Notes: a model not told the origin generated them from the sequence alone. 64,000 bases of DNA from an uncultured bacterium (GCA_903857865.1 CAIOGO010000014.1:1-64000), one strand, 5' to 3'; positions 301-16,949 are shown, counted from the first letter of the stretch. Numbers and translations are program-made.

Positions 301-518
301 ACGTGCTGAGAATGCGGCAATGGGGTGGAATCCCCCAGAGAGCCGAAGGTGACATTCATTCAGCGAGCTACCCCAGCGAGAGGGTGAAGACCAACGTGAT
401 TGGACTTGCTCGGAAGCTGGCTACCTTCACCCCGAAGACTAAACCACGTTATAGAATGAGAGGTCCGGCTCCTGACCCTGCGCAACAGATGCACCCGCCT
501 CGGCATAGAGGCGACGAC

Positions 519-692
519 TGAACCGCCCCGGCTCTTCCGGAAGCTCCATTACCTGAGTCCGGCGACTATCTGATCCAAGATGCCAACCGATGCGGCTTTC
601 ACGTCAATCGGCCGGAGTTCGAAAGCTATCCAGTAGGGCGTATAGAAGAGCCTTGAGTAGGGCCTTTGCTCGCGAGGCCTGACAGGACGGCC
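519..692 (+). repeat. Dispersed repeat, copy A (short form)
   Basis: Starts TGAACCGCCCCGG, passes through a conserved core with GATCCAAGATGCCAACCGAT, then GGAGTTCGAAAGCTATCCAG and GGGCGTA, and ends near GCCTGACAGGACGGCC. The same blocks recur near 1583, 5404, 7345 and 8688. This copy lacks the hairpin insertion after GGGCGTA that copies B and E carry. Nothing else is recognisable between the gene ending at 300 and the minus-strand gene beginning at 833. Confidence 0.85.
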
Positions 693-832
693 ATCGTGTC
701 CGAAGACACGCGGAACGCAACGCCTGGCAACCGAGTAGTCGCCCAGCGGACCCCGCAACCCGCACCAGCCTGTCTCCCCGCACTTCTTCTCTCGCGCCTA
801 GCATTCGCATTGGAGCAGCTTTCGAGGGCAGG

Positions 833-1204
833 TCAGGGGAGGTCACCGCTTGCTGTCCCTGTCGCCGCAAGAGGGTCGGAGCCATATCGATTGGGTCCGC
901 ACTCTCCTCTCTTCAAGAGAAGGACAAGCACGAAATACACGTCGTAGATCGGAGTGAACAGCAGCCAGTAGTGTGCAGCCGGTCGACCGAGATCGTGAAG
1001 ACGTTTCACGATTTGGAGGGCCGACAGGACATTTCCCACCAGTAGGATCGCAGACCAGATCGCCGTCGCAGGCAGTCCAGTAGGCAGCAGTTTCGCAAAC
1101 CCTAGGCTGAATGGGACAGCATAGACAATCACCAAGATGCCGAATTGCGACCAGAAGTACGTCGTACGCTTGTACCGACCCCGCCCTGAGAAGAACATCG
1201 CCAT
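833..1204 (-). CDS. DUF805 family inner-membrane protein
   Basis: 123 residues with the DUF805 pattern: an N-terminal FFSGRGRYKRTTYFW motif, several hydrophobic helices, KRLHDLGRPAAHYW in the middle and a C-terminal GPNRYGSDP. These proteins (E. coli YhaH/YhaI type) are small polytopic inner-membrane proteins of unknown function. The start chosen is ATG at 1204 (MAMFFSG), preceded by a GGTGGAAG purine stretch; a longer reading to 1270 adds only unlikely N-terminal residues. The gene stands alone between repeat copies A and B. Family assignment is firm, function unknown. Confidence 0.85.
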   Translation of the reverse strand: MAMFFSGRGRYKRTTYFWSQFGILVIVYAVPFSLGFAKLLPTGLPATAIWSAILLVGNVLSALQIVKRLHDLGRPAAHYWLLFTPIYDVYFVLVLLLKRGECGPNRYGSDPLAATGTASGDLP

Positions 1205-1451
1205 AGTCAGCTTCCACCGCCAGAGTGTTGCTCCCGAGATCCTTCGTGTCGTCCCCGATGGCCGGTTCACTCGTTGAGCTAGTCTAGCGCGGATTGCGCC
1301 TCACATGGGCGATCGGTGCCCCCTCCATAACGGTGGGACTGTCAGGCGGCGAGAGTGCTCTTCGCGGTGGGCCGACCACGGGGGCAAGGTCAGCGGCCAT
1401 CGGGTCCCATCTGGTGTACCGTGACATGGTTGGCATTTGGAGGTGCGAGAG

Positions 1452-1547
1452 ATGTCAGTGAAGCGGCGAGTATTCGTGGCGGTGCTGTCCCACGCTATCC
1501 GTGCGGGTATCAAGAAGCTTCTGAGGGCGCTACACCTTAGGCGGTAG
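1452..1547 (+). CDS. Possible 31-residue basic peptide
   Basis: An ATG at 1452 follows GGAGGT with good spacing and opens a 31-codon frame ending in TAG. The peptide begins MSVKRRVFVAVLSHAIRAG and is rich in Lys and Arg spaced among hydrophobic residues, giving an amphipathic helix pattern. It lies in otherwise empty DNA between the DUF805 gene and repeat copy B. No family is recognised. The ribosome-binding site and composition are the only support, so this may be a chance ORF. Confidence 0.3.
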   Translation: MSVKRRVFVAVLSHAIRAGIKKLLRALHLRR

Positions 1548-1582
1548 CTCGCAAGGCGGGAAGTCCTTCACCATCGCGCTTC

Positions 1583-1960
1583 TGAACCGTCCCGACTTCT
1601 TCGGAGGCTCCGCAACCTGAGTCCGGCGCCTATCTGACCCAAGACGCCAATCGATGCGGCTTTCATGTCAATCGCCGGGAGTTCGAAAGTTGTCCAGTAG
1701 GGCGTAGAAGCGGGATGGGCAGGCGTGCCCATCCCGCTTCTACTCTCTGCGGTGAGAGTCTGTCGGAGTTCGCGCACGCGAACTCGCTAGCCGCCCGAAG
1801 GGCGGCCCAGGTTACGGCTCCTGTCGGGCGTATAGAGCGCCTTGCGAAGGGACTTTGCTCGCGAGGCCCGACAGGATGGCCTTGCCATCTCTGTTCTCCT
1901 TTGACAGGAGTCCGCCGGGCGCTCGATGGATCCAGATGTCGGTGTTCGAATCCTCCACTC
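1583..1960 (+). repeat. Dispersed repeat, copy B (long form with nested hairpins)
   Basis: Same blocks as copy A, but 126 bp is inserted between two copies of GGGCGTA at 1700-1706 and 1826-1832. The insert begins with a perfect 17-bp stem (1705-1721 with 1726-1742) and a GGCG loop, followed by GAGTTCGCG/CGCGAACTC and GCCGCCC/GGGCGGC hairpins. The copy then continues through CCTGACAGG-like sequence to GTGTTCGAATCCTCCACT near 1960. Minus-strand reading frames here look repeat-derived, not genic. Confidence 0.85.
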
Positions 1961-2212
1961 CCGCCAACGTCCGTAATGGTCTTCTCTTGAGTGCTACGCA
2001 TGTTCCTCGCGTTCGCCTCCCCGAGAATCCGAAGGCGCGTCCTTGATCTCACGCTCGGCTCAGTTCTCGGGGAGCAGTCTGCTTTCTGACGCGGGGCCAG
2101 ATCCGGATTCATGCAGCCCGCAGTCGGGTTTTCGAAGATCAAGCCCTCACAGTATCATCGGGAGTGGCTTCTCTATGCCGCTGAGGTAGAGTTGCGGAGG
2201 AGGATGGTCGCC

Positions 2213-2419
2213 ATGGACCGCCAGGAATCTGGCTGTTGTTGTCGAAACTGCTACTATGCGGGCGCGTCAAGGCAGGGCGGTCTGGAGTGTCGCCGGTTTC
2301 CGCCGCAGGTGTGCCCCAGTGCTCTATGGAGCTTCCCCACGCTTGAGGACGTTGACTCGGCAGAACCGTTGTGGTGTGGAGAGTGGCGAGTGAAGGAAGG
2401 ATCGACGCCTGCGTCCTGA
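2213..2419 (+). CDS. Small Cys-rich (metal- or Fe-S-binding type) protein
   Basis: 68 residues. The pattern is CCCRNCYYAG, then CRRFPPQVCP, a tryptophan, FPTLEDVD and a C-terminal LWCGEW. This matches a widespread family of tiny proteins with a CxxC pair, C-R-x-PP, W...FP and a closing CGEW, thought to bind a metal through the cysteines. The start at ATG 2213 is chosen because GGAGGAGG at 2196-2203 lies at ideal distance; ATG 2204 is too close to it. No cofactor or pathway can be read from the neighbours. Confidence 0.7.
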   Translation: MDRQESGCCCRNCYYAGASRQGGLECRRFPPQVCPSALWSFPTLEDVDSAEPLWCGEWRVKEGSTPAS

Positions 2420-2556
2420 ACCACATCCCTTCCGGGCTGCGCATGCGCGTGGCCCGCGCGACGGTTATAGTCGGCCGTCGACAGAAGCTAGATCATCCAT
2501 CCGATTCCAACTTGCGCGGTGTTCGTCATGGAGATCGCGCGGAGAGCAGGTGAAGC

Positions 2557-3867
2557 ATGCGGAGGACGCCTTCGACCCCCGTGCGGATCAGGACTCGTAT
2601 CGGCTTTCTCCCACGGCTCTACTACTCCTGGCGACGGACGCTCAAGTGGCTATCGATCTTCGCAGCCGTGTCGGGTCCGGGAATCATCGTGATGCTAGCG
2701 GACAACGACGCGGGAGGCATCACCACGTATGCCGCGACCGGGGCGCACTTCGGGTACGGCCTCCTTTGGTTCCTCGTACTACTCGGCCCCATCGCCTACT
2801 ACGTACAGGAAATGACTGTGCGGCTCGGCGCGGTCACGAAGCGAGGTCACGCCGAAGCGATCTTCGACGCGTTCGGCCCGTTCTGGGGATGGTTCTCGCT
2901 CGTCGACCTCATTCTCGTGGATTGGCTGACGCTCGTGACGGAATTCATCGGCATGACGGCCGCGCTTTCAATCTTCCACGTCCCTCCCATCGTCACGGTC
3001 GTCGTCGTCTCCCTCGTCATGATTGCGATGGTGCTGCAGGGCCGCTACTGGACTTGGGAGAAGATTGCGTTTCTGTTTTGCGTTCTGAATCTCGTCTACA
3101 TCCCGGGAGCAATCTTTGTGCGGCCGTCCGTGTCGGAGATTGTCCGTACCGGCCTGATTCCGAACTTTCCCGGGGGCTTCAACAGCCAGATCTTCTTCTT
3201 CCTCATGGCCAACATCGGAACAACAATCGCTCCCTGGATGGTGTTCTTCCAACAGAGCGCCGTCGTCGATAAGGGCATCCAGGAGAAGGACATCCCGTTC
3301 GGCAAGCTGGACACGGCGATCGGCTCACTGTTCACCGTGTTGGTTGCGGCCTTTGTGATCATCATGACCGGGACGCTCCTCAGGGGGGTCCCCATCGATA
3401 GCGCGGGGCACGCCGCCACTGCGCTCATGGGGGTCAACAAGTGGCTCGGAACGCTGCTGGCCATCGGACTCTTCAACGCGGGTTTTCTTGGCGCGATCTG
3501 CATTTCGCTCGCAAGCTCGTGGGCATTTGGCGAAGTCTTCGGGTGGGCTCACTCGCTCAACAACAAGATTCGGGAGGCCCCGTGGTTCTACGCGAGCTAC
3601 GTCATCGCGCTCGCCACGGCAGGCATTGTCGTCCTGATCCCGGGAGCCCCCCTCGTGATGATCACCCTGTTCGTCCAGGTGGTCGCCGTCACGCTCTTGC
3701 CTGCGGCCCTCGTCTTCCTGATCCTGCTTCTCAACGACGGGGAGAGGATGGGCAAGTACAAGAATACGGTGACGCAGAACGTGATCAGCATCGTCGTCGT
3801 GGCCTGCATCGTCATTCTCTCGACGCTGTATGGTGTAAGCACGCTATTCCCGAACCTGTTCCAATAG
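2557..3867 (+). CDS. NRAMP-related divalent-metal transporter, probably Mg2+ (NRMT-like)
   Basis: 436 residues, about eleven membrane helices, with the NRAMP fold signature GPGIIVMLADNDAGG in helix 1. Classic Mn/Fe NRAMPs have DPGN in helix 1 and MPH in helix 6. Here helix 1 reads DAGG (Asn replaced by Gly) and helix 6 reads TTIAPWM (Met replaced by Ala). As I recall the family, loss of the Asn and the soft Met ligand marks the NRAMP-related Mg2+ transporters. The downstream PRC/MgtE_N/CBS gene supports Mg2+. Start ATG 2557 follows a GCAGGTGAAG stretch. First gene of a three-gene operon. Confidence 0.85.
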   Translation: MRRTPSTPVRIRTRIGFLPRLYYSWRRTLKWLSIFAAVSGPGIIVMLADNDAGGITTYAATGAHFGYGLLWFLVLLGPIAYYVQEMTVRLGAVTKRGHAEAIFDAFGPFWGWFSLVDLILVDWLTLVTEFIGMTAALSIFHVPPIVTVVVVSLVMIAMVLQGRYWTWEKIAFLFCVLNLVYIPGAIFVRPSVSEIVRTGLIPNFPGGFNSQIFFFLMANIGTTIAPWMVFFQQSAVVDKGIQEKDIPFGKLDTAIGSLFTVLVAAFVIIMTGTLLRGVPIDSAGHAATALMGVNKWLGTLLAIGLFNAGFLGAICISLASSWAFGEVFGWAHSLNNKIREAPWFYASYVIALATAGIVVLIPGAPLVMITLFVQVVAVTLLPAALVFLILLLNDGERMGKYKNTVTQNVISIVVVACIVILSTLYGVSTLFPNLFQ

Positions 3868-3879
3868 GAGGTGGAGTCC

Positions 3880-4092
3880 ATGGGTTCGCAGCGCACTACA
3901 ATGGCGGCGTCGCTCAAAGCCTTCTGGGGAAGACACTTCCGCGCAATCCGGGAAATCAACCGCAAGTACAAGACCCCGAACGTGACGATGACGCCGGCGG
4001 TCAAGTTCGCGCTTCTCTTCCTCCGGCTCTATCTCCTTCTCCTTGTGGGGCTCTTGTTCTTCAAGTTTTTCACTCTTGTTGCAGTCAAGTAG
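3880..4092 (+). CDS. Small single-helix membrane protein in the metal-transport operon
   Basis: 70 residues. A basic N-terminal half (GRHFRAIREINRKYKTP) is followed by one strongly hydrophobic segment, roughly residues 44-66. Start ATG 3880 has AGGAGGTGG 8 nt upstream; a GTG at 3871 falls inside that ribosome-binding site and is rejected. The gene starts 12 bp after the NRAMP-like gene and ends 6 bp before the PRC/CBS gene, so it is almost certainly cotranscribed. It may be an accessory subunit of the transporter; no family is recognised. Confidence 0.65.
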   Translation: MGSQRTTMAASLKAFWGRHFRAIREINRKYKTPNVTMTPAVKFALLFLRLYLLLLVGLLFFKFFTLVAVK

Positions 4093-4098
4093 GTGGCC

Positions 4099-5373
4099 AT
4101 GTCAAGCGAAGTGCAAGTGGTGAAGGCCGAGCCGGTCGCGTTCTTCCTCTCCGAGCTCATCCGCGCGCGCGTCGTGCAGGTTCGCGGGGGGAAGATGGAG
4201 GAAGTCGGGCGTCTCGTGGATCTGGAGATCACGCAGAACGGCGGCTACCCGGAGGTGGTGAACCTCATCGTCGGCCGATCGTTCGGTCGTGCCCCGCTCG
4301 AGGTTCCGTTCTCGATGGTCGCGTCGATCGCTCCCCATCGTGCGGTCCTCGAAGTGCCGGGAGGCATGACGCTGAAGGAGTTCGCGTACGACCCGATGAA
4401 GACGCTGATCAAGGATATGGTCCTGGACAAGAAGATCATTGACACCGACGACTATGAGGTCGAGGTTGTCTACGACATCCGCCTGCTTCACGCCGAAGGA
4501 AGGATGCACGTGGTGCATGTCGATGTGTCCACGGCGGGGATGCTCCGCCGCTTGCACTTTGGCTGGCTCGGGCGGCTGCTCTGGGGACCGATCAGGGATA
4601 CGGACCTTCTCCCATGGCGCTATGTGCAGCCACTTCCATCCGACTTGGGCCGTTTCCGGGGCGACGTGCGTCTGACCATCTCGCGCGAGAAGATCGCCGA
4701 CATCCACCCCGCTGACTTGGCCGACATCCTCGAGGAGCTGAGCGGAGACGAGCGCATGGCCGTGTTTGACACCCTTGACACGGAGACCGCCGCCGACACT
4801 CTTGAAGAGGCCGAGCCACGCGTGCAGCGCGAACTCGTCGCATCGATGCGGCGTGACCGTCTGGTTGAGCTCTTCCAGACCATGACTGCGGCCCAAATCG
4901 CCGGCATTCTCGAGATTCTGCCCCGCATCGACTCGCAGGTCCTGCGAAGACTCCTGCCGGCAGAGACCGCAGTCAAGGTGGCTGAGCTGCTAAACGAGCC
5001 AGACGTCGAACTTGAGTCGATCGTCACCAACCGATTCCTCGTGCTGCCAGGGACCGCCTTGGCCGGGGAGGCACTTAGTTGCTTCCGCGATCGGACGAGA
5101 CGGTACGACGTGGTGATGTACGTCTACATCACAAGCCAAGACGGCACGCTCGTCGGAGCAATCGACATTCGAGAGTTGATCCAGGCGGAGGAGACAACTC
5201 CCTTGCGCGATATCATGACCGAGCAGGTCGTCACGCTCTCTCCAAAGGACGCGCTCGCTGACGCCGCGGTGGAATTCGCAGATCACGGGTTCCGCGCTCT
5301 CCCAATTGTCGACGAGAATCATCGACTGTTGGGCGTCGTCACGTACAAGGACCTGCTCGCCGTCATGAAGTAG
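4099..5373 (+). CDS. PRC-barrel / MgtE_N / tandem-CBS protein
   Basis: 424 residues. Two PRC-barrel-like beta domains occupy about residues 10-80 and 95-175. An MgtE N-terminal superhelix follows (about 190-290, with IHPADLADILEEL and repeated helical turns), then two CBS motifs (about 300-424, ending LLGVVTYKDLLAVMK). There is no MgtE membrane channel, so it is a soluble regulator-like relative of the MgtE cytosolic Mg2+ sensor. Third in the operon with the NRAMP-related transporter, it probably gates or senses Mg2+ or nucleotides for it. ATG 4099 is preferred over GTG 4093 because AGGTGG precedes it. Confidence 0.85.
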   Translation: MSSEVQVVKAEPVAFFLSELIRARVVQVRGGKMEEVGRLVDLEITQNGGYPEVVNLIVGRSFGRAPLEVPFSMVASIAPHRAVLEVPGGMTLKEFAYDPMKTLIKDMVLDKKIIDTDDYEVEVVYDIRLLHAEGRMHVVHVDVSTAGMLRRLHFGWLGRLLWGPIRDTDLLPWRYVQPLPSDLGRFRGDVRLTISREKIADIHPADLADILEELSGDERMAVFDTLDTETAADTLEEAEPRVQRELVASMRRDRLVELFQTMTAAQIAGILEILPRIDSQVLRRLLPAETAVKVAELLNEPDVELESIVTNRFLVLPGTALAGEALSCFRDRTRRYDVVMYVYITSQDGTLVGAIDIRELIQAEETTPLRDIMTEQVVTLSPKDALADAAVEFADHGFRALPIVDENHRLLGVVTYKDLLAVMK

Positions 5374-5403
5374 ACACGCCACGTTGCCCACCTCGGTGAG
5401 CGG

Positions 5404-5736
5404 TGAACCGCCCCGACTCTTCCGGAGGCTCCGCTACCTGAGTCCGGTGACTATCTGATCCAAGATGCCAACCGATGCGGCTTTCACGTCAATCGACGGG
5501 AGTTCGAAAGCTGTCCAATAGGGCGTATAGAAGAGCCTTCTGAAGCAGCTTTCCTCGCGAGGCCTGACAGGATGGCCTCGCCACTTCTGTTCTCCTTCAA
5601 CAGGAGCCCACCGGGCGCTCGATGGACCCAGAGGCCGGTGTTCGCATCCTGCACTCCCAGGAGCGCAGGGCATTGACAAGGCGCGGAGTGTCCTCACCCG
5701 TGGTTGGGAGTTCGGAAGTAGTCCACTACGGCGTAC
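5404..5736 (+). repeat. Dispersed repeat, copy C plus a second end
   Basis: A short-form copy runs from TGAACCGCCCCGACT to GTTCGCATCCTGCACT near 5660, without the nested hairpin insertion. About 45 bp on, at 5703-5736, a second version of the family end reads GGGAGTTCGGAAGTAGTCCA then CTACGGCGTA. The element therefore carries related sequence at both ends. Bases 5737-5994 hold no gene; the ribosome-binding site AAGGAGG for the next lipoprotein is at 5982-5988. Confidence 0.8.
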
Positions 5737-5994
5737 AGCTGCTGGTGCGCATCAACAGGACATTCCTCGGCCGGCTTCCTTGATCGATCGCGCAGATCGG
5801 ATGGCCAGCCCCCCGGTCAACGGCTCGCTTCTAAGTCCGATATGCTGAGTCGATGGGAGGAGCGCGCCCGGCGCGTTCGGCACCTCGCCAACTCGCCCGG
5901 TTGGTCTCAGCTCCGCAGTTGCTGCTAGTTCACAGGTTGCGCGGTCCGTGGTAGGCTGAGGTTGCTCCACTGGTCAGAGATAAGGAGGTCCAAG

Positions 5995-7320
5995 GTGAAG
6001 ACGCGAATCCCTTACTTCGGCGGTGGTCTTGTTCTGCTGGCTCTCGTGATTGGTGGGTGCAACCTCTTCATGCCTCCTTCAACGCCAACGGTCACCCTCG
6101 TGCCGTCAACCGGGGTCGTCAACTCGCGGATTACGATCGTCGGCACGGGTTTTGGGACCACGCAGGGTACGAGTCACGTCACCCTTGACGGGGTAGCGGC
6201 CCCCATCCTGTCCTGGAGCGACACGAGCATCGTCGCACGTGTCCCCCTCCTGCCGACGCCAGGTGGAGAGCCGAACGCCGTCGCGGTCGCCGTCACAGTC
6301 GACGGCGGGAGCGGAGGGACAGGTACCTTCACCGTAGTGCGAGGCATTCTCTACTGCGCAGTCCGCGGACAGAAACAACTAATATGCCTCGTAGACCCGG
6401 AGAGCTCAGAATCGTTCGACCTCACGTCGAGTGATATCAGTGGATACCCACAGTGGTCCCCCGACGGGACGAAGGTCGCCTTCGTGCGCGGCGGGGGCTC
6501 GGGTTGGGAGGGCGACATCTATGTCGTCAACGCGGATGGCACGGACGAGACTCGCCTCACGATCAGCGCAGCCAATGAGTTGTACCCTGCCTGGTCCCCT
6601 GACGGGACGCGAATCGTCTTCGAGACGGGTCGCGACGGGAACGGCGAGGTCTATCTCATGGACGCCGACGGACTCGACCAGACAAACCTGTCCCAGTACT
6701 CGGGTATCGACGACTGGGCGTCCTGGTCGCCGGACGGCACGCGGATCGTCTTTCAACGCATCGTGTCCATCACGCGGACAGGCGTGGCCACGCCGAAGCT
6801 TCTCATCCCTCACTACGAAGTCTTTGTCATGAACGCGGATGGAACGGGTCAGACCAACATCTCCAAGAATGCTGCCACCGACCAATGTGCACTTTGGTCG
6901 CCCGATGGTGGGAAGATCCTCTTCCAAAGTGATCGCGACGGCGATTTGGAGCTCTACACCATGAATCCCGACGGTTCCAGCCAAACGAATCTCACCCAGA
7001 ACCCCGGGGCGGACGCGTCCGGCGCCTGGTCGCCCGACGGAAGCCAAATTGCCTTCGTGAGCTTGCGCGACGGGAACTTCGAGATCTACGTAATGAACGC
7101 GGACGGCTCCGGGCAAATGCGGTTGACGAACAGCCCTGGTTGGGACGTCGGACCCTCCTGGTCGCCCAGCGGCACGCAGATTGTCTTCGAGAGCGATCGT
7201 GATGGGGACGTGCGTGTCTATGTCATGGACGCGGACGGCACGAACGTGAGGCGCCTGACGAACGAGGAGAGCTGGTGCCCCGTCTGGACCGAGCGCCGGT
7301 GGACGCCAATGTTGCCCTAG
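5995..7320 (+). CDS. Lipoprotein with IPT/TIG domain and TolB-type WD40 beta-propeller
   Basis: 441 residues. GTG 5995 follows AAGGAGG and gives a lipoprotein signal ending LVIGGC. An IPT/TIG-like Ig domain comes next (about residues 30-115: PTVTLVPSTGVVNSRITIVG). The rest is a TolB/PD40 propeller with repeats of the form WSPDGT(K/R)I.F, D.(E/I)(I/V)Y.MN.DG and (Q)TNL or RLT, about seven blades. Such proteins sit in the periplasm or at the outer membrane and bind partners; no catalytic residues are seen. It stands alone between repeat copies C and D. Confidence 0.85.
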   Translation: MKTRIPYFGGGLVLLALVIGGCNLFMPPSTPTVTLVPSTGVVNSRITIVGTGFGTTQGTSHVTLDGVAAPILSWSDTSIVARVPLLPTPGGEPNAVAVAVTVDGGSGGTGTFTVVRGILYCAVRGQKQLICLVDPESSESFDLTSSDISGYPQWSPDGTKVAFVRGGGSGWEGDIYVVNADGTDETRLTISAANELYPAWSPDGTRIVFETGRDGNGEVYLMDADGLDQTNLSQYSGIDDWASWSPDGTRIVFQRIVSITRTGVATPKLLIPHYEVFVMNADGTGQTNISKNAATDQCALWSPDGGKILFQSDRDGDLELYTMNPDGSSQTNLTQNPGADASGAWSPDGSQIAFVSLRDGNFEIYVMNADGSGQMRLTNSPGWDVGPSWSPSGTQIVFESDRDGDVRVYVMDADGTNVRRLTNEESWCPVWTERRWTPMLP

Positions 7321-7344
7321 CCAGCGGATGGTTCAGCATCGGCC

Positions 7345-7517
7345 TGAACTCTCCCGGCTCTTCCGGAGGCTCCTTACCTGAGCCCGGCGACTATCTGATC
7401 CAAGATGCCAACCGATGCGGTTTTCATGTCAATCGCTGGGAGTTCGGAAGTTGTCCAATAGGGCGTATAGAAGTGCCTTCTGAAGGGCCTTTGCTCGCGA
7501 GGGCCGACAGGTCAGCC
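7345..7517 (+). repeat. Dispersed repeat, copy D (short form)
   Basis: Begins TGAACTCTCCCGGC 25 bp after the propeller gene, contains the conserved GATCCAAGATGCCAACCGAT core, then GGAGTTCGGAAGTTGTCCAA, GGGCGTA directly joined to TAGAAGTGCC, and ends near GCCGACAGGTCAGCC. It lacks the nested hairpin block. The uninterrupted GGGCGTA-TAGAAG junction gives the empty-site state for the insertions in copies B and E. Confidence 0.85.
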
Positions 7518-7605
7518 AAGGTCTACCTTCCTCCCGATCCTAGCACTCAGCTTGGACCGGGGTTCGGTGGGCAGGTCAACCGTTGGCGCATAGGAGTCTG
7601 GAGTG

Positions 7606-8592: not shown

Positions 8593-8687
8593 GCAGCCCC
8601 TCCTTCATCACAGCGAGTCTCGTCCTGCCCCGGTGTTAGCTCCACTTCTAGAGTCAGTCTAGTACTCCTCCAACGCCGGAGGCCAAC

Positions 8688-9181
8688 TGAACCGCCCCGG
8701 CTTTTCCGGAGGCTCCACTACCTGAGTCCGCCGACTATCCGATCCAAGATGCCAACCGATACAGTTTTCATGTCAACCGCCGGGAGTTCGAAAGTTGTCC
8801 AATAGGGCGTAGAAGCGGGATGGGCGTGCGTGCCCATCCCGCTTCTACCCTCGGCGGTGAGAGCCTGTCGGAGTTCGCGAACGCGAACTCCCTACCTGTC
8901 CAAGGGACAGGCGCTGTCCAAAGAGCATAGGGTGGCCTCTGGACGGCCCAAGTTACGAATCCTGTCGGGCGTATAGAAGAGCCTTCTGAAGGGCCTTTGC
9001 TCGCGGGGCCTGACAGTAGGGCCTAGCCGCCTGGGCCGCACTTTGAGAGAAACCCATCGATCACTCTGGGAACTCCGATGTCGGCGTTCGAATCCTCCAC
9101 CCGGGAGCAGAAGACGCTGACGGGGCGTCCAGCGCGTTCACCTGTCACTGGGAATGCGAAAGGTGTCCAAGAGCAAGACGT
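8688..9181 (+). repeat. Dispersed repeat, copy E (long form) with a degenerate second end
   Basis: The longest copy. After GGAGTTCGAAAGTTGTCCAA it has 162 bp inserted between GGGCGTA at 8805-8811 and 8967-8973. The insert opens with a 16-bp stem (8810-8825 with 8832-8847), then GAGTTCGCG/CGCGAACTC and CCTGTCC/GGACAGG hairpins plus extra stem sequence absent from copy B. The copy ends with GCGTTCGAATCCTCCACC near 9101. A degenerate second end (GCGAAAGGTGTCCA) lies at 9150-9181, beside the aminotransferase stop. Confidence 0.85.
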
Positions 9182-9205
9182 ACTCATTTGGCCGCCGACC
9201 TGCCC

Positions 9206-10372
9206 CTAGCGCGACAAGGCGCGTTGCGCGGCTGCGACTCCGGCCCCCAACTCGAATCGGTGCCCCGCTTCCTGCAGACCCGTCTCGAGCGCGCCGAGAG
9301 TTCCGAGGATGGCCGCCGCCCGAATCGCCCCCATGTGTCCAATGCGGAAGTAGCGGTCCTTGATCTCGCTGTGCAGTCCCCCCGCGACGGTCACGCCCGC
9401 GCGGCCGATCGCCGCGAGGAGGGCCGGGCCCGAGACGCCGTCGGGGTAGTAGCAGGCTGTGAGGGTGTTCGCTCGGGCCTTTTCGCCTAGAGGAAGTTGG
9501 CGGAGGCCGATCGCGTCGACCCCTGCTCTGAAAGCCCCGCCCAGCAGGGCATGACGCGCGAACCGCGGGGCTAATCCTTCGTCGAGGATTCGGCCGAGAC
9601 TCACGCCGAGCGCGACGACGAGGTTCACGGCCGGGGTCCCGAAGTAACTCGGCTGGCGTGCCTCGTAGGACTGCATGATTGGAAGCCACTTCCCCCAATC
9701 GGCGTAGTAGCTTCGTACGGGCACGCGCCGAGCGGCGAACGCGTCGACCGCAGCGGGACTTGCCACGAGAAGGGCCAGCCCAGGAGGAACCCCGATCGCC
9801 TTCTGCGAGGCGGTAAGCACGACGTCCAATCCCCATGCCTCCTGCTGGATCTCCTCCGCAGCGACAGAGCAGACACCGTCGACGACGGTGAGGACCCCGT
9901 GCCGTCGGCCGAGGTCGCCGAGCGGTTCAAGGGGCATGCGCACGGCAGTCGAGGTGTCCACGTGCGTCACCGTAAGGAGTTTGAACCGCCGCCGCCTCAG
10001 CTCGTCTTCGACGCGATCCGGCTCGACGACGCCACCGAGCGGGGCCCGCAGGACCGTGACCTCGGCGCCGTGCCGGCTGAGCAGATCCTCGAACCGATCG
10101 CCGAACACGCCTGTACTGATCACGAGGGCCCGATCTCCAGGCACGACCAGGTTCGCCCCCGCGAGTTCCATGGCGAACGTCCCCGAGCCCGCCACCACCA
10201 GCGGTTGGCCTGAGGGGCACTGCCACACGGCGCGCATCCTCTCGAGCGCCCGGCCGAAGACTTCGATGAACACGGGCGCGACGTGGCTCGTCGTTGGGGC
10301 TCCTAGGGCCTGCAGCACCTCGGGTTCGAAGTCGACAGGTCCAGGGATCATCAAGAGCTCATGCCCTCTCAT
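9206..10372 (-). CDS. Class V aminotransferase, alanine/serine-glyoxylate type (AGXT-like)
   Basis: 388 residues, PLP fold type I. It begins MRGHELLMIPGPVDF, the usual IPGP start of alanine-glyoxylate and serine-glyoxylate aminotransferases. The PLP region has GSGTFAMEL near 62-70, an aspartate in TVVDGVCSV and the Schiff-base lysine K191 in TASQKAIGVPPGLA. ATG 10372 is preceded by GGAGAGGAGGG; longer readings overlap the upstream gene further. It overlaps the 3' end of the aldolase gene by 14 bp, so the two are cotranslated. It probably turns glyoxylate into glycine, with alanine or serine as donor. Confidence 0.85.
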   Translation of the reverse strand: MRGHELLMIPGPVDFEPEVLQALGAPTTSHVAPVFIEVFGRALERMRAVWQCPSGQPLVVAGSGTFAMELAGANLVVPGDRALVISTGVFGDRFEDLLSRHGAEVTVLRAPLGGVVEPDRVEDELRRRRFKLLTVTHVDTSTAVRMPLEPLGDLGRRHGVLTVVDGVCSVAAEEIQQEAWGLDVVLTASQKAIGVPPGLALLVASPAAVDAFAARRVPVRSYYADWGKWLPIMQSYEARQPSYFGTPAVNLVVALGVSLGRILDEGLAPRFARHALLGGAFRAGVDAIGLRQLPLGEKARANTLTACYYPDGVSGPALLAAIGRAGVTVAGGLHSEIKDRYFRIGHMGAIRAAAILGTLGALETGLQEAGHRFELGAGVAAAQRALSR

Positions 10373-11297
10373 GGTGTCCGCCCTCCTCTCCGGGCCACTC
10401 CGCAAGGCCTGCCTTCTCGAGAATCTGGCGGAGCTCGGCCACGTGAGCGTCGGCCAGTCCCGCAAGCGGCGGCCGAACCGGGCCGCCGTAGAGACCGAGC
10501 AAGTCCATCGCCTTCTTAAGCCCCGGCACGCCCCAGCGGCTCGTCACGGCCGCGTTCAACGGAATCATCCGAAGCTGCAGCTCGCTCGCCCCGACCCGGT
10601 CTCCGGCGAGAAACCGCTCCTGGATCTCCAAGCACTCGCGCGGCGCGATATTGGCCAGGGCGAGGACTCCTCCGGCGGCACCCACCGAGAGTGCCGGGAG
10701 GAAGAACCCCCCTGATCCTGCGAGCACCGTGAACGCCTCGCCGAGGCGCTGCGTGATCGCGCCCAGCTTGGTGACGTCTCCGCCCGAGTCCTTGATTCCG
10801 ACAATGTTCGTGTGGCCCGCGATCGCTGCGATGGTCTCGATGTCGAGGTCGATTCCCGTACATGCCGGCATGTTGTAGATCAAGACCGGAATCTTCGAGG
10901 CATCGGCGACGGCGTGGTAGTGGCACCGGAAGACGTCCCGCGTCATCTGCGCGCGGTAGTAAGATGGCGTGAGGACAAGGGCCGCGTCGGCGCCCAGACG
11001 CGACGCCCGCGCCGTCAGCTCGATCGTTGCGCGCGTCGACTGGCAACCGGTCCCCGCGATGAGCAGCCGGTCGTCAGGGATGCCGTCGCGGGCCACCTCA
11101 AGGACGTGCGCCCGCTCCTCAAGGTCGAGAAGCGCCGCCTCGCCGTTCGTGCCAAGGACCACGTACCCGCGCAAGGCAAAGCGATTCCAGTGCTGCAGGT
11201 TCGCGACAAGTGCGCGCGCGTCGACCGCACCGCCCGCGTCGAACGGCGTGGGAATCGGTGGGAAGACACCCGCCAGCCCAAGCGCCACCTCTTCCAT
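10359..11297 (-). CDS. DapA-superfamily aldolase resembling 4-hydroxy-2-oxoglutarate aldolase (HOGA1)
   Basis: 312 residues, class I TIM-barrel aldolase. Landmarks are GVFPPIPTPF, VVLGTNGEAALL, Y141 in LIYNMPACTGIDL and Schiff-base K169 in IVGIKDSGGDVTKLG. The segments GTNGE, AGTGCQSTRATIE, GLKKAMDLLGLYGGP and NAAVTSRWGVPG follow vertebrate HOGA1 more closely than DapA, as I recall those sequences. HOGA1 splits 4-hydroxy-2-oxoglutarate into pyruvate and glyoxylate, which fits the downstream AGXT-like gene. ATG 11297 follows GGGAGGG closely; a GTG at 11357 with GGAGAG is an alternative start. Confidence 0.8.
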   Translation of the reverse strand: MEEVALGLAGVFPPIPTPFDAGGAVDARALVANLQHWNRFALRGYVVLGTNGEAALLDLEERAHVLEVARDGIPDDRLLIAGTGCQSTRATIELTARASRLGADAALVLTPSYYRAQMTRDVFRCHYHAVADASKIPVLIYNMPACTGIDLDIETIAAIAGHTNIVGIKDSGGDVTKLGAITQRLGEAFTVLAGSGGFFLPALSVGAAGGVLALANIAPRECLEIQERFLAGDRVGASELQLRMIPLNAAVTSRWGVPGLKKAMDLLGLYGGPVRPPLAGLADAHVAELRQILEKAGLAEWPGEEGGHHERA

Positions 11298-12178
11298 CCC
11301 TCCCTGCACGCCTCGCGCCCGACCACGTTTCGCGGCGCGACCGAGGTCTTCGTTCACGATTGACTCTCCGCACGCCCCCGGCTCTAGGTACCCCCGTGAG
11401 TCTACACACCCAGCAGAACAGAGACCAGTCCCGGCCAAGAGCAAGAACCTGTCGCCAAGAAGACGGTCTCCAGCGAGCGCTGACATCGGCGCGAGCCGAG
11501 TCAAACCATCACCCACAGGACTTCCTGAATGGCCGGATGACGGGGGCGACATTCCAACACGATCAAGCGGTATCTCCGAAGAGCCCGCTGCCCCCAGCAG
11601 CCACACCTCCGCCACCACTACTCTACCTCAACGGAGGCGTCCCGTCCCTGCACGGAAACAAATGCTAGAGCCCGCCACGCCCCATTGGACAACTCTCGAA
11701 CTCTCAGCCATGGGTGAACCCGCTCCATGCCTCGTCAACGTCCTCTGCGCCTCGGAGTGGAGGACAATCTTGGGACTCTGCCGCCTCGACTGATGGAGGA
11801 GATCGCGGAGCTTTCGGTGTGGCGAATCGGCGAGTTGTAGCGAACTGCGTCTCGAGCCGTCTCCGAGACGATGCAGTACGGGGAGCCTTCATGCGGCAGT
11901 GGTGGGCAGCTCGCGTCCACTGCTAACCGCTTCCGCCGCGTAGTCGGACGCGGCGGGGGGGCTTGTGGTATGGGAGGCGGCGCCCATGAAGCGGGATGGC
12001 GTGGGCGTCTCGTACGTTGCGTTAGCCTACGCGGCCACTCACCTTGAGGAGTCGGGTATTCCGTGCGCTATGGTGAGCGACTTGGTGCAGCGGAGAGGAC
12101 CCGCGACGCATCTCGAGGAGGAGGGGGGCCTTGAGCGAGTACAATTCCGTCGTTCAAACGGAAGCGGGAGGGGACCTC
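11298..12178. other. Gene-poor interval with one inverted repeat end
   Basis: No convincing gene is seen in about 880 bp. Long plus-strand frames across 11298-11793 are shadows of the aldolase gene and its leader. At 11671-11709 there is a minus-strand copy of the dispersed-repeat end. From about 11985 a frame starting MKRDGVGVSYVALAY after GGGAGGCGG runs into the nitroreductase region, but it resembles nothing known and uses a frame overlapping the real gene. The nitroreductase ribosome-binding site closes the interval. Confidence 0.5.
11671..11709 (-). repeat. Solo, inverted end of the dispersed repeat
   Basis: Read on the minus strand, this is GAGAGTTCGAGAGTTGTCCA followed by ATGGGGCGT, matching the conserved GGAGTTCGAAAGTTGTCCAA-TAGGGCGT end of copies A-E. 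No other part of the element is recognisable here. It is the only copy found in this orientation. Confidence 0.7.
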
Positions 12179-12754
12179 ATGAGGAAAGAAGCCCAGACTC
12201 GAATTCTGGAAGCGATCATGACTCGCCGGAGCGTGCGCCACTACTTGGCCCGTCCGGTGGACGGCGAGACCGTCGCGGCGCTGCTCGAGAGCGCGCGACT
12301 TGCGCCGTCAGGGAGCAACACCCAGCCCTGGCACTTCGTCGTGATCCGCTCCGAGACAGGGCGACGAAACCTGGTCAGCGTCTGCCACGACCAGAAGTGG
12401 ATGCTCGAGGCGCCGGTCCTCGTGGCCTGCGTGGCCGACGTGCGGTCGCGGATCAAGGACGACTCGCCCCTCTCACTCTCGGAAACGAGCCCCGAGTTTG
12501 AGGTGAAGCAGATCATCCGGGACACGGCAATCGCAGCTGAACACCTCGTCCTCCAGGCGCAGTCGATGGGGCTCTCGACGTGCTGGATTGGCCGGTTCAA
12601 GCAGGAGCGGATTCGGGGGGCTCTCCGGATCCCTTCGGACAAGTACGTGGTTGCCGTGATCACCGTGGGGTACTCCGACGACCAGCCTGAGTCCAGGCCG
12701 CGCAAGCCGCTGGACGAGATGGTTCACTTCGAGACGTGGGGCGGTCAGCCATAG
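12179..12754 (+). CDS. Nitroreductase-family FMN oxidoreductase
   Basis: 191 residues. The N-terminal TRRSVRHYLARPV (phosphate-binding RRSVR) and LAPSGSNTQPWHFVVI are the FMN-binding signatures; the C-terminal half has IAAEHLVLQAQSMGLSTCWIG. Such flavoproteins reduce nitro groups, quinones or other acceptors with NAD(P)H; the physiological substrate cannot be told. ATG 12179 is chosen because GGGAGGGG lies 6 nt upstream; the reading frame is open further upstream but without a ribosome-binding site. Probably monocistronic. Confidence 0.88.
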   Translation: MRKEAQTRILEAIMTRRSVRHYLARPVDGETVAALLESARLAPSGSNTQPWHFVVIRSETGRRNLVSVCHDQKWMLEAPVLVACVADVRSRIKDDSPLSLSETSPEFEVKQIIRDTAIAAEHLVLQAQSMGLSTCWIGRFKQERIRGALRIPSDKYVVAVITVGYSDDQPESRPRKPLDEMVHFETWGGQP

Positions 12755-12882
12755 CGGGGACGAGGCTCTCAGCTTGGGTTGGCGGCGCCTTGGGGCTGCC
12801 GTTCAAGACGAGGACGGAGACAGTGGGCCCCGTTCGCAAGCTCGTTGGGGCGTACCAGACGGGACTACTCACGAAAAGGGCG

Positions 12883-12914
12883 TCCGGTTCGGAAGTAGTC
12901 CACCAAGACGCAGT
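12883..12914 (+). repeat. Solo end of the dispersed repeat
   Basis: GGTTCGGAAGTAGTCCACCA followed by AGACGCAGTGGAC matches the right-hand end variant of copy C (TTCGGAAGTAGTCCACTACG). It lies in the 360-bp interval between the nitroreductase and the next gene, which otherwise contains nothing recognisable apart from the GAGG ribosome-binding site near 13111. Confidence 0.6.
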
Positions 12915-13118
12915 GGACAAGCCTTACGAAGTACACCTGCTCTTGAGGGCCGAGGGAACGGGATGCCCCGCTTGATGCTTCGTGCGTAGGAATCTCCGTA
13001 CCGCACTGAGGATCGGCGTTGTTGGCGCCCGAATTCCGTAGACTCTTGCCCTCTCGCTTGACCGACTCCCAGTGTCCACTGTAGGCTCAGCGGACAACGT
13101 CGCGTGAATCGAGGACCG

Positions 13119-14237
13119 ATGAACCGGACCATGTGTCGAACGCTCGTCGTGATTCTTCTTGCGGCTTCCCTTCCTGTTGTCGCCCAGCAAGGAACTCTCT
13201 CGATTTGTGACTACGAGCCCCCGGAGAGCCGGATCTCCGATCTCGGCATTCAAGGTTCGTTCAACTGGTCCGACGGCCCGTATGCTGACGGCCGCAACCG
13301 CGCCCTCTCTGCGAGCCTCGTCGCCGATTACCAAGGGCTGTTCTCGTCCGAGGCATTCGGGCGGGTTCTCAATGCCCATACTGAGGTTCTTGGAACCAAC
13401 GATGGGTGGACCGCCGATCTATCCGCGGCGGGAAGTCTGCGGACGTTCCTCACAGGCAATCTATTCGGCGTCGGTGTCGTCGGCCTCGACGCGTCCACCC
13501 GGACCGGTCTCGGGGTTGACCTGACCGGCGGCGTCGGTACCGGACGTTTTCGTGACGTCAGCCCTCTCGCACAGGCGATCCGGATCCAGGACGCCCTGCT
13601 TGACATAGGAGAGCTGCAGGCCCCGGCAGCCAACGATACGTTGCTCGACTTGGCGCAGATCCTCGGCGAGGACGGTCCCACCGACGATGAGAAGGTGGTC
13701 CGTTTGGCCGAACGGCTGGTCGCGACAGAGCTTGTCCCCAGCAATAAGATCGGCATCCGCGGGCTGCTGGCCATCGAGGAGATCCTCCAGTCAGGTGCTG
13801 AGGCGCGACTCTGCGGCCGCGACGTACAGGCGCGCCTCGGCGCCTCGGCGATCCTGCTTCCCGAGTTCAGCCTCGCGGCGACGGGAATCCTCCTCGTGCG
13901 CTTTGCAGCCGTCCCGGATCCGGTTTCCCAGTTCGATTCCAGCGCCCAGGCGAAGTTCCGCCTGGCTCGGCCCGAAGAGATGAGTATCGAGGCCAATGTG
14001 TCGTACGTACGGCTTTTGCCGGACGGGTGGACCGCGCGGGCCAGCTGTCGAATGTCCATCGACCGCATGTGGACCGTGCCTGACGCAACCGTCGTCTCCT
14101 ACGCCGCTTCCGGGAGTCTGACGACGAAGGTCTTCGGCTCCGTCGGGCTGAGCCTGGTCGGCAACGCCCAGTACACCACCGGTGACGAGGCGATGACTCT
14201 CTCTCTGGCCGTTCACCTGGAGGCGGATCTCTTCTGA
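13119..14237 (+). CDS. Secreted / outer-membrane-like protein of an ABC exporter operon
   Basis: 372 residues with a signal peptide (MNRTMCRTLVVILLAASLPVVAQQ, cleavage near VAQ). The mature part has long alternating beta-strand stretches (ALSASLVADYQG; FSLAATGILLVRF; SIEANVSYVRLLPDGW) and ends VHLEADLF, with a terminal Phe as in many outer-membrane barrels. A central helical stretch (about 150-230) may be a plug or loop. ATG 13119 follows GAGG at 13111. Its stop TGA overlaps the ATG of the ABC ATPase gene by one base, so it belongs to that operon. No named family recognised. Confidence 0.7.
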   Translation: MNRTMCRTLVVILLAASLPVVAQQGTLSICDYEPPESRISDLGIQGSFNWSDGPYADGRNRALSASLVADYQGLFSSEAFGRVLNAHTEVLGTNDGWTADLSAAGSLRTFLTGNLFGVGVVGLDASTRTGLGVDLTGGVGTGRFRDVSPLAQAIRIQDALLDIGELQAPAANDTLLDLAQILGEDGPTDDEKVVRLAERLVATELVPSNKIGIRGLLAIEEILQSGAEARLCGRDVQARLGASAILLPEFSLAATGILLVRFAAVPDPVSQFDSSAQAKFRLARPEEMSIEANVSYVRLLPDGWTARASCRMSIDRMWTVPDATVVSYAASGSLTTKVFGSVGLSLVGNAQYTTGDEAMTLSLAVHLEADLF

Positions 14238-14974
14238 TGGCCGAGGAGCAAGTCGTTCGCGCCGAGGGACTTCGAAAGCTGTTCGGGAAGCATGCCGCGC
14301 TGGACGGTCTCAGCCTGTCCGTGCCGCAAGGGCAGCTGTACGGACTCGCCGGTCCGAACGGGGCCGGCAAGACGACGCTCATTCGGACGCTGTGCGGCCT
14401 GCTTCGCCCGGACGAAGGCACGGCGTACCTCCTCGGCTGGCGCATGCCAAACACTCGAGTCCGATCTCAACTCGGCTACATGCCGCAGGACTTCGCTGTC
14501 TATGACGACCTGAGCGTCATGCAGAACCTCGAGTTCTTCGGTGAGCTCTATGGCCTTCGCCGAGCTCACGTGCTCGGGCGCGCGAACGAATTGCTCGACC
14601 TCGTCCAGTTGAGCGACCGCAAGCGACAGCGCGTAGGCACCCTCTCCGGCGGCATGCGCCGGCGCGTCTCGCTCGCGATCAGCCTGCTGCACAAACCGCG
14701 GCTCGCGTTCCTCGACGAGCCGACCGCCGGGGTCGACCCCAAGCTTCGCCGTTCGTTCTGGGACTACTTCAGCGCGCTCGCCGAGCAAGGCGTCACTCTG
14801 GTTGTGACAACCCACCTGGTCGATGAAGCGCAACGCTGTCACATCGTCGGCTTTCTCATGGCCGGACGCCTTCTCACCCAGGGCACGCCGAGCGACATCC
14901 TCGCTCAGACCCGGACGACGAACCTCGATGACGCGTTCATCGCGCTACAGGAGCGCAATCAGGTGAGATCATGA
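14237..14974 (+). CDS. ABC-2 type exporter, ATP-binding subunit
   Basis: 245 residues. Walker [10 protein letters not shown] near residue 40, ABC signature LSGGMRRRVSLA, Walker B RLAFLDEPTAGVDP and an H-loop VVTTHLVDEA are all intact. The arrangement is typical of ABC-2 exporters of the CcmA/DrrA type, which move drugs, lipids or polysaccharide parts outward. It overlaps its upstream neighbour by one base and the downstream permease by 4 bp (ATGA), so all three are translationally coupled. Confidence 0.92.
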   Translation: MAEEQVVRAEGLRKLFGKHAALDGLSLSVPQGQLYGLAGPNGAGKTTLIRTLCGLLRPDEGTAYLLGWRMPNTRVRSQLGYMPQDFAVYDDLSVMQNLEFFGELYGLRRAHVLGRANELLDLVQLSDRKRQRVGTLSGGMRRRVSLAISLLHKPRLAFLDEPTAGVDPKLRRSFWDYFSALAEQGVTLVVTTHLVDEAQRCHIVGFLMAGRLLTQGTPSDILAQTRTTNLDDAFIALQERNQVRS

Positions 14975-16185
14975 CAAGTTTCGCCGTGATGAAGAACGTT
15001 CTTCGTCGGATTCTGCGCGACGTCCGAACCCTGGCATTGATCGTGATCCTGCCACTATTCTTCGTCCTCCTGTACGGGAACACATTCTCCGGCTCGTACT
15101 CTCACCTGAAGATCGTTGTCGTGAACGCAGACAACGGCCTCGCCTCCGTGCGCACCGCCGAGGTCGGCCGCGTGACCCTGGCCGTCAATCTGGCCTCGGA
15201 GTTCGTTGCCGCACTCGATCCGGGGACTTTCAGCGTCGTGACGGTTGACAACGCAGACGAGGCGCTCGCCACAGTTGGCGACGGCGTATGGGCTGCGCTT
15301 GTCTTCCCGAAGTCGTTCTCCAACACCGTGGTCAACGAGGCCGTGCGCGCCGGAGGGGCCCGTAACTTCGAGTTCGAAGGAAACAAGGTGACCGTCTTGC
15401 CTGGTGATCCGGTCGACGTACCCCTGACGACGCTGGCGATCGACGACTCCAACCCGCTCGTTGCTCAGGCGGTGCTCGCAGGGCTCGACGCCGCCTTTGC
15501 GAAGGTGCTTGACACCCAGCAGTCCTCATTGACCGTCAACTCGCTGCTCGACGTGCGCCCGCTGTACGAAGGCAAGATCAAGATGCTCGACTTCACTGCT
15601 CCAGGCATCATCGGCTTCGCGATGACCCTGATCACCATCATGCTGACCGCCATGGCGGTCGTTCGCGAGCGCACCGGCGGGACGTTGACGCGCATCCTGA
15701 TTGCACCGGTCAGCGCCTGGCAGGTCACCCTCGGCTACACGTTGGCATTCAGCCTGATCGCCATCTTCCAGGCCGCCGAGCTGTTCATCGCGTCGAGCTT
15801 GCTGTTCCATATTCGCTTCGTCGGGAGCCCGGTCGCCGTGGCTCTCGTCATCGTTCTGTTCGCCGTCGGCCTGCAGGGTATCGCAACCCTGATCTCGACC
15901 CTTTCAAAGAATGAAGCGCAGGCGATGCAGTTCGTGCTCTTCCTCTTGATCCCGTCCATCATGCTGAGCGGCGTCTTCTGGCCGCTCGAGTCCATGCCGG
16001 CGTCGATGCGGCCGTTCTCCTACGCCATTCCGCTCACCTACGCCAACTCGGCCCTCCGAAAGGTCATGCTGACCGGACACGGTCTGGGCGAACTGAGCTT
16101 CGAGCTCTCCGTCCTCGCCGCCATCGCCCTCTTTACTCTCTTCTTGAGTGTCCTGAGCATGCGGCGTCAGGCATACACCGCATGA
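14971..16185 (+). CDS. ABC-2 type exporter, permease subunit
   Basis: 404 residues. One N-terminal helix (about 20-40) is followed by a large extracytoplasmic domain (about 45-215). Five hydrophobic helices follow, starting IIGFAMTLITIMLTAMAVV, with the ABC-2 motif RERTGGTLTRILIAPVS. This is the YhgE/DrrB-like layout with a big periplasmic loop. It works with the ATPase encoded just upstream. The cargo is unknown; the first operon gene may be the envelope partner. No membrane-fusion protein is encoded alongside. Confidence 0.9.
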   Translation: MTSFAVMKNVLRRILRDVRTLALIVILPLFFVLLYGNTFSGSYSHLKIVVVNADNGLASVRTAEVGRVTLAVNLASEFVAALDPGTFSVVTVDNADEALATVGDGVWAALVFPKSFSNTVVNEAVRAGGARNFEFEGNKVTVLPGDPVDVPLTTLAIDDSNPLVAQAVLAGLDAAFAKVLDTQQSSLTVNSLLDVRPLYEGKIKMLDFTAPGIIGFAMTLITIMLTAMAVVRERTGGTLTRILIAPVSAWQVTLGYTLAFSLIAIFQAAELFIASSLLFHIRFVGSPVAVALVIVLFAVGLQGIATLISTLSKNEAQAMQFVLFLLIPSIMLSGVFWPLESMPASMRPFSYAIPLTYANSALRKVMLTGHGLGELSFELSVLAAIALFTLFLSVLSMRRQAYTA

Positions 16186-16371
16186 GTGACCGTTCCCTCT
16201 GAAGCCGGCGAGAGGCAGAGTTAGGATCCGAGTGCCTCTACGCCACTGAGCCGAGCAGGCCAGGAACTCTATCTCCTCCCGATTCGGCCAGACGGAAGTT
16301 CCAGAGCTGTCACCCTGATGGGTACCAGTCGAAAGTGGTCCCGTTGGATCACCCAGGTGGAGGATCCTCGA

Positions 16372-16404
16372 ACCGAGTTCGGAAGTAGCCCGCAAAGGCG
16401 TACC
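16372..16404 (+). repeat. Solo end of the dispersed repeat
   Basis: GAGTTCGGAAGTAGCCCGCA then AAGGCGTACC matches the repeat end. Immediately to its left GGTGGAGGATCCTCGAACC is close to an inverted copy of the GTTCGAATCCTCCAC block that closes copies B and E. No member of the family was found to the right of this point. The rest of 16186-16679 shows no gene. Confidence 0.6.
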
Positions 16405-16679
16405 GGTCAGGATCGTACCGAGAACCGACGCACGAAGGTTCATAGGTATGGTGATGTCAGGCATACTAGAACCTCACGCCCTCACTCCCCAGTGCGTTGA
16501 GGAGTCGCAAGGGAAGAGCATTCTGCCCTACTCCTCTTGCGCAATGTGTCGCGATGCGGTAAGCTCGCCCTGTTGTTGGCAGTCTGCAGTCGTTTTACTC
16601 TGGAGAACAGACTACTCTGAATCCCGTCTAGAACGCTCTGTCAGTACGAAATCCCCAACATGCAGGAGGTAAGAAGACC

Positions 16680-16892
16680 ATGGCAGATCGTCAAGTCGGT
16701 ACGGTCAAGTGGTTCAACGAGACCAAGGGATTTGGCTTCATTCAGCGCGAGCAGGGCGAAGATGTGTTTGTGCACTACAGCTCGATTCGCGGCGAAGGGT
16801 TCAAGTCGCTTAGCGAAGGCCAGAAGGTGGAGTTCACCCTCGGCCAGGGCCAGAAGGGTCCCCAGGCGAACGACGTCGTCGCCCTCCCGTAG
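16680..16892 (+). CDS. Cold-shock domain protein (CspA family)
   Basis: 70 residues, a complete single cold-shock domain. It has the [18 protein letters not shown]1 region and the [11 protein letters not shown]2 region, with the aromatic residues needed to bind single-stranded RNA or DNA. It acts as a cytoplasmic nucleic-acid chaperone. Start ATG 16680 lies 8 nt after CAGGAGGT. A strong terminator follows at 16919. About 490 bp of non-coding DNA lies upstream, so a long regulatory 5' leader is possible, but no defined element can be seen. Confidence 0.95.
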
Positions 16893-16918
16893 CACATAGG
16901 AGACGAACCAAAGACGAA

Positions 16919-16949
16919 GGCAGCAACCCTGTGGGGTTGCTGCCTTTTC
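16919..16949 (+). terminator. Rho-independent terminator after the cold-shock gene
   Basis: An 11-bp perfect stem, GGCAGCAACCC at 16919-16929 with GGGTTGCTGCC at 16934-16944, has a 4-nt TGTG loop and is followed by TTTTCT. It lies 26 bp after the csp stop codon. Confidence 0.9.

Follow-up and report, generated by a model that had tools for sequence, protein, structure and literature searches.

A dispersed composite repeat with probable displaced copies of a structured RNA found at tRNA 3' ends in Candidatus Bipolaricaulota

Composite repeats in the window

We analyzed a 64,000-nt stretch of DNA from an uncultured bacterium (GCA_903857865.1, CAIOGO010000014.1:1-64000), referred to here as the window, whose left part carries a family of dispersed repeats. 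Two of the five main copies enclose an additional RNA unit that, in related genomes, adjoins the 3' ends of tRNA genes. The genome holding the window comprises 2.24 Mb in 22 contigs and is 91% complete; the related bacteria belong to the phylum Candidatus Bipolaricaulota. The main copies (A to E) start at positions 518, 1582, 5403, 7344 and 8687, every one on the + strand. Solo ends were located at 5709..5735, 12886..12912 and 16376..16402 on the + strand, with a weak, inverted one at 11676..11702 on the - strand (3 mismatches). Both sets agree with a preliminary description of the window. The end pattern AGTTCGRAAGTWGTCCANNANGGCGTA (≤3 mismatches) gave 15 matches genome-wide versus 0 for a reversed-pattern control. 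The left-end pattern of the 5' module gave 10 versus 0, with 10/10 on the forward strand. The repeat family is real and far above chance, and we regard its existence and its modules as practically certain. It had been described as confined to the left 17 kb. Within the window this holds, as no copy lies right of 16.4 kb, but the family extends beyond it, with copies or parts of copies on seven other contigs (C2, C3, C4, C6, C10, C17 and C22). Others were found in two further genomes, G003 (88% identity) and G027.

The copies consist of modules joined at the heptamer GGGCGTA. In copy A, a 5' module (518..642) made up of an IS3-type end, a ~55-nt middle and a solo-end motif ending in GGGCGTA is followed directly by a 3' module fragment (TAGAAGAGCCTT..GAGGCCTGACAGGACGG; 643..695). 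The same direct junction is seen in copy C, where the 5' module (5403..5527) is joined straight to a 3' module (5528..5665) without the RNA unit, and in copy D (7344..7467, then a 3' module fragment at 7468..7511). In B and E, a unit of 126 and 162 nt, respectively, lies in between. The 5' module of B (1582..1706) precedes a putatively ectopic RNA unit (1707..1832) comprising helix H1, strand A', H3, CTAGC, H4 and an apparent copied tRNA 3' end, CAGGTTACGGCTCCTGTCGGGCGTA; the 3' module that follows (1833..1967) has a tRNA-like T-arm at its end (GTGTTCGAATCCTCCACTCCCGCCA). Copy E likewise comprises a 5' module (8687..8811), a putatively ectopic tRNA-end RNA unit (8812..8973) and a 3' module (8974..9104). 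The units of B and E score 124 and 117 bits with covariance model R1 (see below), both copies being part of its training set. Outside the window, the 5' module stands alone on C6, C17 and C10, and is followed by three tandem units on C4.

The several strong hairpins noted previously belong mainly to one part of the composite. The extra unit of B and E folds strongly (z about -6) and the 3' module weakly (z -1.8), but the 5' module, present in every main copy, shows no folding advantage over shuffled sequence (z 0.06). The solo end corresponds to the last 27 nt of the 5' module, the motif AGTTCGAAAGTTGTCCAATAGGGCGTA, which is also found alone. Its hairpin shows good pairing in some copies only; at 12886..12912 the upstream arm GGGACTAC is able to pair with GTAGTCC.

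A covarying RNA unit at tRNA 3' ends

Unit ends such as CAGGTTACGAATCCTGTCGGGCGTA look like a tRNA 3' end because the unit sits directly at one, as seen at the end of contig C2, where it begins right after a tRNA-Arg(CCG) gene. A covariance-model search of the kind proposed for the repeats was informative for the extra unit of B and E. Model R1, built from 11 units, was run against 33 genomes from the same bacterial family and gave matches in 10 of them. Matches outside its training set start at the 3' ends of tRNA-Arg(CCT, CCG, GCG, TCG) and tRNA-Gln(TTG) in other genera; such independent matches at tRNA 3' ends occur in G004, G015, G016, G017, G023 and others. A second model, R2, was built from 36 units and searched through 100 genomes of the phylum with stricter filters, at the cost of weak matches. 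It matched 12 of the same 33 genomes and none of the 67 elsewhere in the phylum, adding tRNA-Leu(CAG), tRNA-Arg(TCT) and further tRNA-Arg(TCG) loci. We count about 20 loci, spread over 10 genomes, with the unit starting at the tRNA end or a few nt from it, sometimes in tandem. The tRNA species concerned number seven (five Arg isoacceptors, Gln and Leu), in several genera. A related arrangement was seen in G002 (L106, 1187-1800), where tRNA-Gln(CTG) is followed by a hairpin with its own acceptor 3' strand, repeated downstream. This locus scored marginally with R1 and is left out of the R2 count, so the RNA class is probably wider than counted.

Covariation supports every helix: H1 (about 15 bp), P1 (A' with A''), P2, H3 and H4. 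The unit runs from H1, at or a few nt from the tRNA discriminator base, through A', H3 and H4 to A''. In the 36-sequence set, standard pairs fill 91.8% of paired cells versus 72% in shuffled sequences and 41-50% with partners slid; covariation is 0.554 versus 0.206, and 34/42 pairs show changes on both sides. This rises to 41/42 pairs with 45 sequences, a few antisense matches included, although both alignments were fitted to the model and are hence biased toward it. RNAalifold on an unfitted MAFFT alignment of 11 sequences found 22/42 pairs doubly changed. On the tRNA strand, paired cells hold 142 G-U and 31 A-C combinations, an excess that fits RNA transcribed from that strand and not a DNA cruciform. 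Covariation thus exceeds the shuffled and slid controls, and the context is conserved at model-independent loci. We are confident in reading the unit as a structured RNA that is attached to tRNA genes. The preliminary description had offered a structured RNA/DNA family as one of two possibilities, to be refuted by few copies and no shared structure. For the unit, copies are many and the structure is shared, whereas the 5' module lacks a conserved structure. As an RNA candidate, the 5' module was rejected, with 3/31 pairs doubly changed and an unfavourable covariation term.

In B and E the unit lies between a pseudo tRNA end, the ...GGGCGTA that closes the 5' module, and the 3' module. The 3' module also follows the unit at tRNA-Arg(TCG) in G000 and G015, so B and E resemble displaced neighbourhoods of a tRNA 3' end. 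Judged by this shared order, they are most probably displaced copies of the tRNA-end RNA unit within the dispersed repeat.

Known families did not account for the unit. At gathering score, the window and ten related loci gave no Rfam match to rtT (RF00391), and neither did four unit loci (L110, L146, L147 and L168) at E-values up to 5. At gathering and permissive thresholds, the units matched only tRNA and chance microRNA models, and no T-box or riboswitch family. In the literature collection that was searched, nothing relevant to tRNA-end-linked elements of this kind was found. The rtT RNA of the Escherichia coli tyrT repeats is tandem, lies directly downstream of a tRNA gene within the tRNA transcript and contains copies of the tRNA 3' end. 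Our unit likewise repeats downstream of tRNAs with a copy of the tRNA 3' end. However, it has no detectable homology to rtT and differs in its covarying fold, its strand complementary to the tRNA end, the enlarged T-loop of its copy and its presence at seven tRNA species in several genera. Given the rtT-like layout without homology or an Rfam family, we class the unit as a new form of tRNA-end-carrying repeats. A tRNA-like CCA end, GGCGTACCAG, was also tried as a genome-wide mark of retro-inserted elements and was dropped (8 matches versus 10 in the control).

Complementary strands and tRNA maturation

The unit ends in a copy of the 3' end of the tRNA beside it. Its last 13 nt match their own tRNA at 11.4/13 positions versus 9.5 when permuted (0/20000 permutations). 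In nearly all units measured, the copied T-loop is longer than the tRNA's own 7-nt loop (GTT-A-CGAATCC, GTTC-A-GAATCC, GTTCCCACGAATCC). Lengths were taken automatically and come out one too low where the stem starts CCC, and unit L152 is exceptional or ambiguous. CCA follows the last unit at tRNA-Leu(CAG) in G000 and at tRNA-Arg(CCT) in G016 and G027, which places the units at these three loci between the discriminator base and CCA.

A third strand, A', lies directly after H1 and is complementary to A, the tRNA 3' strand, and also to A'', its copy. At tRNA-Arg(TCG) of G000, A' (TACGCCCGGAG) and CTCCGGGCGTA form a perfect 11-bp match. A' pairs better with the upstream end and the copy at its own locus than with those of other loci (0/5000 permutations each). 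ViennaRNA predicts downstream pairing of the tRNA 3' strand in 15/20 unit loci at +60 nt and 18/20 at +200 nt, versus 7/39 and 6/39 for 39 other tRNAs from these genomes. Among 12 full-length folds, 8 have the greater part of the tRNA 5' acceptor strand paired with the unit (6-8 bp) and not with its own 3' strand.

Structured RNA at tRNA 3' ends, tRNA-specific strands and alternative pairings in predicted folds form the observed basis for a model of the unit's role. A' would first capture A as an extension of H1, leaving a precursor tRNA without an acceptor stem. A'' would then compete for A', or pair with the tRNA 5' strand, and the two pairing states would decide if and when the tRNA folds and acquires its 3' end. 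H3, H4 and P2 could form the part that senses or binds something, with H3/H4 and the single-stranded CGGUGAGA and CUAGC segments as a putative signal receiver. Taken as a whole, the best explanation we can offer is an RNA element of three strands that gates the folding or processing of the tRNA, with B and E as displaced copies, and we put it at about an even chance. Gating of tRNA maturation taken singly we rate somewhat below that, and likewise the suggestion that cells put the alternative pairings to use in delaying or gating tRNA folding and 3' processing. More tentative still is the full proposal of a cis-acting RNA class that controls tRNA maturation by capturing the nascent tRNA 3' strand and releasing it, or substituting its own copy, on a signal read by H3/H4, with pieces spread by the dispersed repeat.

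In T-boxes and other riboswitch or attenuator platforms, mutually exclusive strand pairing decides the fate of a transcript. The three strands of our unit, predicted to be mutually exclusive, would work alike, but here control would fall on the tRNA itself, which lies upstream of the unit, and no ligand is known. The regulated-tRNA reading would thus be a novel case within tRNA-end-carrying repeats. Transfer RNA genes are commonly regarded as constitutive, and we know of almost no structured RNAs that regulate tRNA maturation in cis. A covarying element with a tRNA-specific strand at Arg, Gln and Leu tRNA genes makes regulation by tRNA folding directly testable. It also offers a molecular reason for repeats with tRNA 3' ends, for which, to our knowledge, no explanation has been put forward since the E. 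coli tyrT repeats. The copies in the window indicate how a tRNA-linked RNA can reach sites distant from any tRNA.

Several points weigh against gating. The copied end is truncated or altered at tRNA-Arg(GCG) of G004 and tRNA-Arg(CCG) of G017. Pairing of A' is weak at some loci, for instance at tRNA-Arg(TCG) of G004 (-6.1) and in ectopic copy E versus its upstream end (-6.5 kcal/mol), and the units in the window adjoin no tRNA. At +60 nt, 5/20 unit loci have no predicted capture and 7/39 controls do. The permutation tests of A' pairing and of the unit end ignore the relatedness of the loci, and the folds, based on nearest-neighbour energies, take no account of tertiary contacts in the tRNA, of modifications or of proteins.

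The unit may instead be a tRNA-linked trailer RNA with another role, such as a small RNA or sponge set free by 3' processing, an element for processing or stability, or a tRNA-end decoy, its three strands being relics of tandem copying. Position beside a tRNA and strong structure would be equally expected of such an RNA. Tandem copying of the tRNA 3' end would make A and A'' alike without selection, and the longer T-loop fits a copy that is prevented from serving as a tRNA end. The closest precedent, the E. coli tyrT (rtT) repeats, is a released RNA with copied tRNA ends. Copying leaves unexplained, however, why A' is complementary and specific to its own tRNA, over 11 nt without mismatch at tRNA-Arg(TCG) of G000, and why P1 shows compensatory changes. 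We consider this a real but lesser possibility. An alternative RNA role of this type (trailer, sponge or decoy) is nearly as likely as gating, and an integrative DNA element is less likely than either.

Many tyrosine-integrase elements use the tRNA 3' end as their attachment site, and the units could be tiny non-autonomous elements of that kind, with arrays as repeated integrations and hairpins as recombinase sites. The precise junction at the discriminator base with a regenerated tRNA 3' end, a CCA shifted beyond the units at the three loci above, tandem arrays and ectopic copies at GGGCGTA-like sites would all suit such integration. We nevertheless judge it improbable in view of the compensatory changes and the RNA-like excess of G-U over A-C on one strand, the unit's place beside equivalent tRNAs in several genera and a copied T-loop unlike that of the tRNA nearly everywhere. 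One exact unit-end pattern also had no match in viral contigs. Integron attC core sites (RYYYAAC/GTTRRRY) were not seen at unit ends in a comparison by eye, no search for an integron integrase having been made.

The IS3-type end and spread of the composite

Across 12 aligned copies in three genomes, the 5' module (~125 bp) shows about 89% identity; the window genome has 10 copies. Its first ~41 bp match the ends of IS3-family elements in many plasmids, in which the transposase reading frame begins about 52 bp in. The module thus has an IS3-type terminal sequence at its left end only. The preliminary description had left open a non-autonomous mobile element or a structured family, and each suits a different part of the composite: the unit is the structured RNA, and the dispersed 5' module with its IS3-type left end has the look of a mobile element. 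In line with that description, which reported no transposase, no orfA/orfB reading frame lies between the modules of the window copies. There is no second terminal inverted repeat as in miniature inverted-repeat transposable elements, the left-end pattern having no inverted match genome-wide, and neither a target duplication nor a clean empty site was found at two loci compared in relatives.

The composite may be an IS3-derived miniature element, with an IS3 transposase acting in trans on the left end to move the 5' module, and the unit and 3' module as passengers. In favour of this, IS3-type transposase genes are present in the genome, and the 5' module is conserved in sequence without RNA structure. 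Copy C is absent from the equivalent place in two species of the genus (G001 and G003), but the downstream gene also differs there, so this is not a clean empty site. At the compared loci, relatives without a copy have rearranged, non-homologous flanks. Against this reading, too, neither an inverted second end nor a target duplication was seen, and no transposase gene with the matching end type was found. IS3-assisted spread of the composite is accordingly conceivable and, in our view, somewhat doubtful: the link is to one end of the 5' module, and this IS3-type left end is the only apparent clue to how the composite moves.

Other candidates for a driver or a known right end did not hold up. 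An IS3 copy on C10 was rejected because it has a different type of end and itself lies within a solo end. The right end of the 5' module gave one chance match to a known insertion sequence end, and phage and plasmid searches with copy B gave no match. The rejected C10 element (L063, 11732-12950, in G000) is of the IS3 family and lies inside the solo end with an apparent AGGC target duplication; once joined, its flanks restore CCACCAAGGCGTGCCAG. Upstream of copy C, an NRAMP-like and MgtE-like gene pair (2539-5373) is conserved in two other species (L130 and L131) with a different gene next to it, and the stretch after the pair is variable.

Repetitive extragenic palindromes (REP/BIME) are paired hairpins dispersed between genes, and spread of our repeats by REP-associated tyrosine transposases (RAYTs) is very unlikely: the genome has four RAYT genes and twin hairpins with the unit's H3-CTAGC-H4 core are scattered through it, but the repeat is much longer than REP, the unit is a larger multi-helix RNA at tRNA genes, and the inspected flanks of the four RAYT-like genes carry neither unit nor 5' module, with no link to RAYT genes seen.

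The twin hairpins, GGAGTT..AACTCC-CTAGC-hairpin with a core as in the unit, lie between genes in L097, L098, L105 and L108. They also occur in tRNA spacers within L062, L066, L067, L107 and L109, in genera g1 and g13, and their stem sequence varies per copy. The RAYT-like genes of G000 encode ~290 aa and lie on C22 (L117 and L119), C10 (L118) and C13 (L120). Three of the four were scanned, one scoring above and two just under the NCBIfam cut-off, and two of the four are flanked by GGGGTCAGATCTT/AAGATCTGACCCC. The window holds other features of note. A 134-bp tandem duplication, 96% identical with a spacing of 147, lies at the contig edge (1-281), and four degenerate ~83-bp repeats occur inside a TolB/propeller-like reading frame (6589-7238). 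At a cold-shock gene (16606-16948), the cspA thermoregulator model scored 43 bits, below its gathering score of 78.

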